From positions 1-64,000 of the forward strand of contig NZ_JROO01000038.1 in assembly GCF_000826685.1 (NCBI RefSeq): 64,000 nt of DNA, written 5' to 3'. Position 1 is the first letter of the stretch. The number at the start of each line of letters is the position of its first letter. The notes below the pieces were generated by a model. The model ran no database searches. It had not been told where the DNA came from and was given only the letters and a program-made list of their open reading frames with translations. Of the stretch, positions 27,966-30,642 are shown in pieces. A program made the position numbers and the translations under genes. Source of the stretch: Streptomonospora alba. GTDB lineage: Bacteria > Actinomycetota > Actinomycetes > Streptosporangiales > Streptosporangiaceae.

Positions 27966-28649
27966 ATGAGCGCCAACACCACACTGCATGTCGTCACCGT
28001 GTTCCTCGGGGACGGCGACACCGGCGGAAACGAACTCGGGGTCTTCCTCGACGCGTCGGGAACGGCCGAGACGGTCCGGCAGCGGATCGCCGCCGACCTC
28101 GGCTTCGCCGAGACCGTCTTCGTCGAGGACGCCGACCGGGGGCGGCTGTACATCCACACACCCGCCGTCGAGCTGCCGCTGGCCGGCCACCCACTCGTGG
28201 GCACCTCGTGGCTGCTGGCCGACTCGGGCCGCCCGCTCGACGTCCTCAACCCGCCCGCAGGCGCGGTCTCCACGTGGTCGGAGGGCGAGCGGGTGTGGAT
28301 CCGCGCCGATCCCGATCTGGCGCCGGTCTTCGACACCCGGCAGTTGGCCTCCCCGGCCGAGGTGGACGCCCTGAAGGGCGGTGAGGCAGGGGTCGACCTC
28401 CACGTGTGGGCCTGGGAGGACGAGTCGGCCGGACACGTCAGGGTGCGGGTCTTCCCGCACGAGATGGGCATCGGCGAGGACGAGGCCACCGGCGCCGCCG
28501 CGCTGCGCCTGGGTCAGCGGCTCGGCCGTGCGCTGACCGTGCACCAGGGGGTGGGCTCACGCATCGACGTGCGCCCCGGTCCCGGCGGCACCGTTGAGGT
28601 CGGCGGCCGCTGCGCCCTGCTGCGGACACGCGAGTACCCGCTGTCCTGA
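27966..28649 (+). CDS. PhzF-family isomerase-like protein
   Basis: A 227-residue PhzF/diaminopimelate-epimerase-fold protein, slightly short for the family (260-300). Hallmarks: VVTVFLGDGDTGGNELGVFLD near the N-terminus, FAETVFVED with the conserved Glu, LPLAGHPLVGTSWLL, and GEDEATGAAALRLGQRLGRAL near the C-terminus. The family contains isomerases and proteins of unknown role. No phenazine genes are nearby. The ATG at 27966 follows a weak GCAGGG. Confidence 0.82.
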   Translation: MSANTTLHVVTVFLGDGDTGGNELGVFLDASGTAETVRQRIAADLGFAETVFVEDADRGRLYIHTPAVELPLAGHPLVGTSWLLADSGRPLDVLNPPAGAVSTWSEGERVWIRADPDLAPVFDTRQLASPAEVDALKGGEAGVDLHVWAWEDESAGHVRVRVFPHEMGIGEDEATGAAALRLGQRLGRALTVHQGVGSRIDVRPGPGGTVEVGGRCALLRTREYPLS

Positions 28650-28729
28650 GGGGTGCGGCGATGCGTCGCGGCGCGTGCGTGGAGGCACCCGCCTCGATGG
28701 GGCCTTAGGAGCGCCGGCGGTCCCGGGGC

Positions 28730-29368
28730 TCAGCCGCGCACCAGGCTCCCGTAGACGATCAGGTTCCGCTCGTAGCGCCCGGTGCCGGGGTCGAAGCGCC
28801 CCGCGCAGGTGATCAGCCGCAGGGCGGCGTGGTCCACGGGGCCGTAGACCGCGGCGGAGGGGAACCGCTCCTTGTCGACCTGCTCGCTGCGCCGCACCCG
28901 GAACAGCGCGGAGGAGCCGTCTGCGCGTCCGATGCGCACCCTGTCGCCCGGCTCCAGTTCGTCCACCCGCAGGAACGCCGAGGGGCCGGTGCGGGAATCG
29001 CGGTGGCCGACGATCACCGCCGGGCCGGGTTCGCCGGGCGCTGCGCCCAGGCGGTACCAGCCCGCGACGCCGGTCCGCTCCAGCGGCGGCTCCTCAAGTG
29101 TCCCGTCGGCGTCGAGCCCCACGGGCACGATCCGCGCGGCCATGCCGACGGAGCGGGCGGTGATGCGCACCGGGGCGGCGACGGCGTCCGCCGGGTTCTG
29201 CGGCCCTCGCGGTCCGGTCGCCGGGCCGCTCCGATCGGGGCCGGTGGGCGTGGCCGGCGGGTCCGCGCCGGCGGCGCGCAGGGGTGGCGCGGCGCCCGGA
29301 ACCGCCACCAGCAGTACCACCGCGGCCAGAGTGCAGGCCAGACCGCGGGCGGCGGATTCAGCCCGCAC
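28730..29368 (-). CDS. Class F sortase
   Basis: About 212 residues. An N-terminal hydrophobic anchor (about 8-33) and a Pro-rich linker precede the sortase domain at about 65-212. The catalytic triad is visible: His122 in VIVGHRDS, Cys188 in LRLITCAGRFD, and Arg201 in RYERNLIVYG. Class F enzymes transpeptidate surface proteins. The start is uncertain: GTG 29368 or 29404 and TTG 29413 are in frame, none with a good RBS. All overlap the preceding gene, whose C-terminus carries a candidate sorting signal. Confidence 0.8.
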   Translation of the reverse strand: MRAESAARGLACTLAAVVLLVAVPGAAPPLRAAGADPPATPTGPDRSGPATGPRGPQNPADAVAAPVRITARSVGMAARIVPVGLDADGTLEEPPLERTGVAGWYRLGAAPGEPGPAVIVGHRDSRTGPSAFLRVDELEPGDRVRIGRADGSSALFRVRRSEQVDKERFPSAAVYGPVDHAALRLITCAGRFDPGTGRYERNLIVYGSLVRG

Positions 29369-29852
29369 GGCGGGCGAGTCGGCGGCTCGCTGCCGCGGCC
29401 GCACCCGCGGCAAGCAGTCCGGCGCCGGCCAGGGCGGCGGGCACCGGCGAGCCGGAGTCGGCCGCGGCGCCGCCTCCTCCGGTCTGCGGCGCGCCGAACG
29501 GGGTGGGTGTGAGCGGCCCCCGCACCACCGTGACCTCGCCCGCGACCGTCTCGTTCGAGGCGCCGCCGGCGCACTCGCCCATGACGCCGTAGACGCCCGG
29601 CTGCGTGCCCGGCGCCACCACGACCGGGACGGTGCCGAAGGTGTCGATCAGTTCGGCCGAGGCCGAACCCTGGAACGCCCGGGATGTGAACTCCAGCCGC
29701 TCGGCCGGTCCCTCGCAGGAGGAGCGCAGGGTGACGGAGTCGCCGGGGGCGACGGTGGCCGGCGTGATATCGATCTCCCCGGCAGTCGCCGCGGAGGCCC
29801 CGCCCACCGCCGCCGCGCTCGCCGCGAGGCCGATCGTCACCAGAATGCGCAT
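29358..29852 (-). CDS. Secreted protein with APQTG sorting signal, likely sortase substrate
   Basis: A 164-residue surface protein. Signal peptide at 1-25 (RILVTIGLAASAAAVGG then ASAATAG), an Ig-like beta domain with Cys46 and Cys94 that may pair, then a C-terminal cell-wall sorting region. This last comprises APQTG at 121-125, a Gly/Ala spacer, a hydrophobic helix at 137-155 and the tail RRLARRAG. APQTG is a non-classical LPXTG variant. The ATG at 29852 has GGGGAGAC upstream. The gene overlaps the class F sortase gene, so anchoring by that enzyme is likely. Confidence 0.75.
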   Translation of the reverse strand: MRILVTIGLAASAAAVGGASAATAGEIDITPATVAPGDSVTLRSSCEGPAERLEFTSRAFQGSASAELIDTFGTVPVVVAPGTQPGVYGVMGECAGGASNETVAGEVTVVRGPLTPTPFGAPQTGGGGAAADSGSPVPAALAGAGLLAAGAAAAASRRLARRAG

Positions 29853-30033
29853 GTCGTCTCCCCATCGCCGCACATCGGACAACCGAACGATGTCACATTA
29901 GGTTATGTATGGTCACGCACCGTATCGGGTGTCGGGACGTGTCGCGGTTCCATCGGGGCTCCCTCGCGCCCCGCCATCGGCGGCTCGGCCCTACCCTCGA
30001 AGGAGATCGAGGCGAATGCATGGCGGAGTGGCG

Positions 30034-30642
30034 ATGTCGGCGACGCGGTTGCTGGTTCTGGGGGCGGTGCGCGCTTCGGGGCGGGCACACGGCTACCAGG
30101 TGCGGCGCGAGCTGCTCAGTTGGGGCGCCGAGCAATGGGCCAGTGTCAAGCCGGGCTCGATCTACCACGCCCTGCGCCAGTTGCTGAAGAGCGGAATGCT
30201 GCGCAGCGCCGGTGTGGAGGAGAGCGGCGAGGGGCCTGAACGCACGCTCTTCGAGCTGACCGAAAGCGGCGAGGAGGAGTTCGTCCGCCTGCTGAGCAAA
30301 GCGCTGTCGGACGCCTCGGCCAAACCGGAGTTCTTCGGCGCCGGCATCACCTTCCTGACGTGCCAGCCCCGGGAGCGGGCTGTCGGTCTGCTGCGGTTCC
30401 GCCTCGCCGGGCTTGAGCGGGAGCAGGGAAGCCTCAGGTCGATGCTGGAGGACGGGGCGGTGCCGGCTGCCAAGCCCGAGCACGTCTGGGAGCTGTTCCG
30501 TTCGTGGATCGTCGCAGGCGATGCGGCGGTCTCCTTCACCCGCGAGCTGATCGAGCGCCTGGAGAACGGCGCCTACACCATGGCCGGCGAGGGCGGCGCG
30601 GCCTTCGGCGAGCGCGGCTGGATGTCCTCCGCGCAGGGCTGA
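30034..30642 (+). CDS. PadR-family regulator
   Basis: A 202-residue PadR-like protein. The winged helix at 1-85 has RLLVLGAVRASGRAHGYQVRREL, the recognition region VKPGSIYHALRQLLKSGML and the wing PERTLFELTESGEEEF. The C-terminal helices (about 105-190) are of the Vir-like dimerisation type. ATG 30034 follows GGAG; ATG 30016 with AAGGAG ten bases upstream is an alternative. It sits 104 bp before a DrrAB-type exporter and probably represses it, as PadR proteins often do. Confidence 0.85.
   Translation: MSATRLLVLGAVRASGRAHGYQVRRELLSWGAEQWASVKPGSIYHALRQLLKSGMLRSAGVEESGEGPERTLFELTESGEEEFVRLLSKALSDASAKPEFFGAGITFLTCQPRERAVGLLRFRLAGLEREQGSLRSMLEDGAVPAAKPEHVWELFRSWIVAGDAAVSFTRELIERLENGAYTMAGEGGAAFGERGWMSSAQG

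Follow-up and report, generated by a model that had tools for sequence, protein, structure and literature searches.

An overlapping class F sortase and putative substrate gene pair with an extended, non-LPXTG sorting signal in Streptomonospora alba

Within the window, by which we mean the whole 64 kb stretch of DNA that was analysed, we identified an overlapping pair of genes that are both encoded on the minus strand and, according to a check of the open reading frames (ORFs), both fall within positions 28730–29852 (Table 1). The upstream gene encodes a small putative substrate protein and the downstream gene a sortase. A PadR-like regulator gene is divergent from the pair and is followed by a gene for an ABC-type ATPase, and a PhzF-like gene converges on the pair; all three names come from reading of the ORFs. 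A search of the region 28500–30200 revealed neither a sigma-70-like promoter nor a terminator.

Table 1. Features of the substrate and sortase genes, in positions of the window.
Feature	Position	Strand	Basis
Substrate gene, 164 aa, ATG start, TGA stop	29358..29852	-	ORF; family-genome matches
Signal peptide, residues 1-24, predicted cut after ATA, placed by eye	29781..29852	-	sequence reading
Ig-like beta-sandwich ectodomain, residues 25-111	29520..29780	-	predicted structure, alignment
Sorting motif P-F-G-A-P-Q-T-G-G-G-G, residues 118-128; putative Thr124/Gly125 cleavage	29469..29501	-	alignment, profile, strict scan
Ala-rich hydrophobic helix of sorting signal, residues 136-156	29385..29447	-	sequence; model
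Basic tail RRLARRAG, residues 157-164	29361..29384	-	sequence
Substrate/sortase overlap, 11 nt to sortase GTG	29358..29368	-	start at -11 in related pairs
Class F sortase gene, 212 aa from GTG at 29368	28730..29368	-	ORF, NF033748, predicted structure
Catalytic His122 codon (GHRD)	29003..29005	-	His in 64/64 aligned class F sortases
Catalytic Cys188 codon (LITC)	28805..28807	-	Cys in 64/64 aligned class F sortases
Asn202 codon, apparent position of usual catalytic Arg	28763..28765	-	Asn in 61/64 aligned class F sortases

The preliminary description of this locus had the two genes overlapping by at least 11 bp, and this was borne out, the overlap measuring 11 nt from the GTG codon given in Table 1. 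An alternative TTG start at 29413 would extend the sortase to 227 residues. Counted from the substrate gene's end, 12 of 15 related pairs have an in-frame sortase start at −11, two have one at −14 and one has it at −23; several of these pairs also offer other possible sortase starts, and the −11 codon is either GTG or ATG, depending on the pair. Because an in-frame start at −11 recurs across related pairs, the 11-nt overlap is very likely real, and because this overlap is conserved while the start codon itself changes, we suggest that translation of the substrate and the sortase is coupled. In the four GVDTG-type pairs examined from the same genus, a possible sortase start is found at −4 (GTGA) instead.

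The sortase matched the class F model NF033748 with 176.9 and 177.2 bits, over the curated cut-off of 166, and scored 31 bits against the class E model, for which the cut-off is 160; this agrees with its original assignment to class F. The alignment column occupied by Asn202 looks like the position of the usual catalytic arginine, and an arginine-to-asparagine exchange is reported for actinobacterial class F sortases in excerpts of an earlier study (PMC6998099). The predicted structure has pLDDT block means of 91–98 over residues 61–210 and adopts a fold that matches SrtA (PDB 7f87; VIA Z 16.1, 129 residues, 2.2 Å) and sortase E of Thermobifida fusca (PDB 9m2n; VIA Z 15.8, 127 residues, 2.2 Å). 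A search of the PDB with the single sortase sequence returned nothing at E ≤ 0.01, and a profile search returned 10 distant sortase sequences.

The substrate protein contains all the elements ascribed to it in the preliminary description, namely a hydrophobic N-terminus, a beta domain, the APQTG sequence, an Ala-rich hydrophobic stretch and the RRLARRAG end. Its ectodomain is predicted to form a seven-stranded Ig-like sandwich, with pLDDT block means of 89–96 over residues 31–110, and contains two cysteines, Cys46 and Cys94, that are invariant across 16 aligned relatives. The helix of the sorting signal was modelled with low confidence at residues 151–161. No Pfam family was matched at E ≤ 1, the LPXTG anchor PF00746 included, and a PDB profile search gave weak matches only, the best of which (E 0.044) was to a stretch of cyclodextrin glucanotransferases. 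Structural matches were to generic Ig-like or PKD-like sandwiches, the best being transglutaminase 2 (VIA Z 9.8, 88 residues, 2.2 Å), and we therefore did not read a function from them; our guess would be a role in surface adhesion or a structural one. At E ≤ 1e-4, matches to the substrate were present in 30 of 297 family genomes, its own genome counted. Of the 19 positions that are invariant in the 16 aligned sequences, eight are located in the motif (P118, G120, A121, P122 and G125–G128), and the P1 position is occupied by threonine in 12 sequences, serine in three and alanine in one. The substrates of this family with serine or alanine at P1 (GAPQSG, GAPNAG, GAPNSG and GAPDSG, at loci L066, L067, L068 and L075) are found beside open sortase frames.

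Protein-to-protein joining is established for class C sortases. A comparable, pilin-type reaction is conceivable here, in which the sortase would polymerise its substrate or join it to another protein rather than to the wall; such a scheme would suit a small Ig-like protein, and the joining of one protein to another by sortases is described in parts of a published text (PMC13257024). Nevertheless, one substrate gene is seen in the unit and the 16-sequence alignment contains no invariant lysine, and we regard this reaction as very improbable.

Our survey of class F sortase neighbourhoods comprised 220 loci that reduced to 191 distinct class F sortase domains, with a bias to high-scoring sortases since these were taken best first. 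Among the 175 domains with at least 900 bases of upstream sequence, 143 were preceded by an ORF that encodes a hydrophobic helix and a basic tail, and in 128 of the 175 a TG preceded the helix, as against 0 of 175 on the opposite strand. Using a strict definition of a partner gene, which demands P-x-G-x-x-x-[TSA]-G, we analysed 143 distinct sortases that had come from sortase searches or the regions around them and not from substrate searches: 102 had a partner just upstream on the same strand, three a divergent one and two a downstream one, and for none of the 143 did the other strand of that kilobase carry a partner. The remaining 36 sortases lacked a strict partner in the stretch examined, which counts against the pairing. 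A wider set of 173 of the 191 domains (at least 1490 bases upstream, 150 bits), to which substrate searches contributed 25 domains and which contains five repeats or near-copies, gave 129 upstream, three divergent, two downstream, 39 without a partner and none on the opposite strand; without the repeats, 126 of 168 sortases had an upstream strict partner. Judged from the sequences of these neighbourhoods, arrangements like that of the window pair are common.

Several loci in the survey show other layouts. Under looser criteria, seven loci with no upstream partner (L094, L095, L098, L101, L106, L107 and L184) have a divergent ORF that ends in P-[IV]-G-G-V-A-A-G-F-G-G, with alanine at P1. Three genomes (G057, G012 and G031; loci L145, L191 and L170) contain units in tandem, spaced by about 2 kb, each consisting of a class F sortase and its own signal-bearing gene, and the motifs differ between the two units. 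A class F-like sortase from outside the actinobacteria, that of Marinococcus luteus (L007), scored 141.6 bits against the cut-off of 166 and had no strict partner nearby.

Comparison of the partner genes defined a longer signal, P-x-G-[GA]-[AVP]-x-T-G-x-G. The signal profile takes 116 of 138 signals, chosen by a selection score that fixed glycine at P1' and rewarded threonine at P1, particular residues at P4, glycine or alanine at P5, glycine at P6 and glycines that follow the cut, with P7, P3 and P2 unscored. Proline occupies P7 in 97% of the 116 signals, and P6 and P8 in 0% and 2%, respectively. Glycine is present at P5 in 97% and at P3' in 96%, and threonine at P1 in 94%, these three percentages being inflated because the selection score rewarded those letters; P4 is glycine in 60% and alanine in 27%, and P3 is alanine in 42%, proline in 27% and valine in 25%. 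The P7 proline was also present in 94% of all 138 signals, in 84 of 87 signals from loci found through their sortases and, at a looser cut, in 98 of 105. The window sequence PFGAPQTGGGG agrees with every position of this extended signal. Across the 64 kb window, six-frame translation yields 619 ORFs of 50 residues or more; a strict scan of these (P-x-G-x-x-x-[TSA]-G, a hydrophobic stretch and a basic tail) returned a single ORF, that of the substrate. The motif had been presented as non-classical, and it is indeed a non-LPXTG signal; however, APQTG is not a private pentapeptide but the form of the longer signal that has proline at P3 and alanine at P4. By this sequence comparison, "APQTG" is too narrow a description of the class F-linked signal.

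The P3 proline was found in 32 of 114 signals, and its distribution required eight changes on the sortase tree compared with a mean of 28 after shuffling, with the starred branches forcing at least six. Since so few changes are needed on the sortase tree, we conclude that the P3 proline probably arose or disappeared several times, in step with the enzyme. We also sought the sortase residues that set the P3 preference, for which six independent pairs on supported branches were available, too few for the purpose. We lean, by a small measure, towards a general model in which actinobacterial class F sortases would read a signal of about 10 residues, P-x-G-[GA]-[AVP]-x-[T/S/A]-G-x-G. Proline at P7 and glycine at P5 would be fixed, alanine or serine would be allowed at P1 (as in GVAAG, GAPNAG and GAPDSG), and each enzyme would be tuned to the P4–P3 residues of its co-translated partner, giving several parallel display routes per cell.

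Class F sortases were detected in 101 of 120 family genomes at E ≤ 1e-10. A signal profile (A1) built from 61 signals was searched against the same genomes at E ≤ 1e-3, where 100 of the 101 genomes that encode a class F sortase gave a match, as did seven of the 19 that lack one. At E ≤ 1e-4, a cut chosen after the table had been seen, the corresponding figures were 96 of 101 and 0 of 19 (Fisher test 7e-18, a value that ignores kinship, as some of the 19 negative genomes share a genus). Because the profile derives from neighbours of class F sortases, some of them in the very genomes searched, the positive side of this co-occurrence is not independent, and the negative genomes therefore carry the weight. 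Across the 120 genomes, 333 sortases were counted against 337 signals, with a Spearman correlation of 0.87 between the per-genome counts. In genus g9, represented by six genomes among the matches listed, four had both genes adjacent and two (G073 and G102) had neither.

These data also bear on whether the protein is only a tail-anchored membrane protein, its helix and basic tail serving as nothing but an anchor and its Gly-rich stretch as a linker. Exported tail-anchored proteins do occur in actinobacteria, as described in part of one report (PMC10924467), but neither the position-specific proline at P7 nor the co-occurrence with class F sortases would be expected of a plain linker, and we judge a simple tail anchor to be improbable.

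The preliminary description had further proposed that one substrate is served by one enzyme. The genome of the window (G000) encodes three sortases, of which one belongs to class E (contig C47) and two to class F (contig C90 and the window), and contains two full-length signals, in the window (42.3 bits) and on C90 (30.3 bits, MPAGGVDTGGG). A further 17 signal matches in this genome at E ≤ 1 were partial or weak. One of these, a weak signal on contig C59, was rejected on reading, being antisense to what reads as a methyltransferase gene. In the C90 pair (L002/L054), the end of the GGVDTG gene overlaps a possible sortase start (GTGA, −4); this pair lies close to the end of a 4250-base contig, and the N-terminus of its substrate is cut off.

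Among the six genomes of the genus, four (G000, G107, G121 and G080) have the GAPQTG pair side by side, and in one (G030) the substrate search gave no match and all class F pairs are of the GVDTG type. The sixth (G120) encodes a substrate that is 71–72% identical with an intact GAPQTGGGG motif, yet the sortase is missing from the locus and the substrate stop codon runs into the PhzF-like gene. The two class F sortases of G120 are located elsewhere, beside GGVDTG and GGMETG proteins. In pairwise comparisons, the G120 substrate gene gave dN/dS values of 0.40 with the window and 0.33 with G107, similar to the 0.35 between the window and G107, and slightly higher values with G080 and G121 (0.65 and 0.66) than the window or G107 gave with these two (0.53–0.61). 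Three comparisons of the sortase gene with G121 are left out of this set because their reading frame was wrong. This weak test gave no clear sign of relaxation, although some relaxation may have occurred. Either the orphan protein of G120 is served by another sortase or its sortase was lost recently.

Because the substrate is retained in G120, where this sortase is missing, its recognition is not necessarily exclusive. The proposal of one substrate for one enzyme thus stands as far as the conserved overlapping pair is concerned, and falls short because the genome has a pair of class F sortases and as many full-length signals, and because G120 has no sortase at the locus. The GAPQTG protein could be handled in trans, no less than by its neighbour, by the class F sortase on C90 or the class E sortase on C47, with adjacency reflecting history rather than strict pairing. 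The intact signal of the G120 protein and the dN/dS values of its gene, similar to those between intact loci, favour handling in trans. Against it stand the retention of both genes side by side in four of the six genomes of the genus, the P3 proline that tracks the sortase tree, the lack of a signal at E ≤ 1e-4 in all 19 genomes without a class F sortase, and the slightly raised dN/dS against G080 and G121. On balance, we consider handling in trans unlikely, though a real possibility.

Our preferred reading, which we hold to be likely, is that the pair constitutes a two-gene surface-display unit in which the sortase would cut the extended signal of its partner and anchor the Ig-like protein to the wall. 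The basis of this reading is the gene structure, its conservation, the motif and the genome-wide co-occurrence; the export route, recognition, cut site and acceptor are what we infer from sequence. The substrate would be exported by its putative Sec-type signal peptide, after which the C-terminal helix and basic tail would keep it in the membrane. Translation of the sortase from the same mRNA would begin at a codon within the last bases of the substrate gene, possibly in a coupled manner; the enzyme would recognise the signal from P7 to about P3' and cut between the threonine and the glycine, and the Ig-like protein would be transferred to a cell-wall precursor as the putative acceptor.

A partner gene and a motif are now available for most of the class F sortases examined, which makes their specificity directly testable, and class F enzymes could supply ligases without cross-reaction with LPXTG enzymes. 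In the literature searched, which takes in a minority of subscription journals, the extended motif was not found; "GVDTG" appeared there in two papers whose titles point to other subjects.

The closest known system is the GVDTG sorting domain (NF058571, GVDTG_CTERM), which the substrate matched with 20.3 bits as a whole protein, with 24.2 bits as the signal and with 23.4 bits in a further search, all under the cut-off of 29. The layout is the same, with the motif, hydrophobic helix and basic tail in GVDTG-domain order at the C-terminus and the match spanning profile positions 1–43 of 44; the window signal differs by alanine at P4, proline at P3 and glutamine at P2 in place of glycine, valine and aspartate. 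The same model matches 48 of 61 class F partner signals at E ≤ 0.01. By this likeness, the window signal probably works like a GVDTG sorting domain, although it is below the membership cut-off.

The comparison with characterised sortases is less direct. SrtE1 of Streptomyces coelicolor, a class E enzyme, shares the sortase fold (PDB 5cuw; VIA Z 15.2, 132 residues, 2.2 Å), whereas its substrates carry LAXTG, a signal that differs from that of the window; a residue other than proline at P3 is known there too, according to excerpts of PMC5148588. Developmental roles are described for class E sortases in parts of two studies (PMC13251363, PMC5148588), and the role of class F sortases is described as unknown in excerpts of PMC13251363 and PMC6998099. 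Two published statements count against our preferred reading. First, the class F sortase of Cutibacterium acnes is said to read LPXTG (PMC13257024); the window enzyme has no LPXTG partner beside it. Second, Actinoplanes missouriensis showed no phenotype when it lacked its four class F sortases, according to excerpts of PMC13251363. In that species, the proteins AMIS_11010 and AMIS_36440, encoded beside srtF1 and srtF4, have a signal peptide, a transmembrane segment and a basic tail, and were set aside for want of a known pentapeptide. The extended motif could explain why such class F neighbours were set aside. This kind of system is known, as NCBI models both class F sortases and a GVDTG sorting domain; the window pair is a variant of it, and what merits testing is the extended motif.
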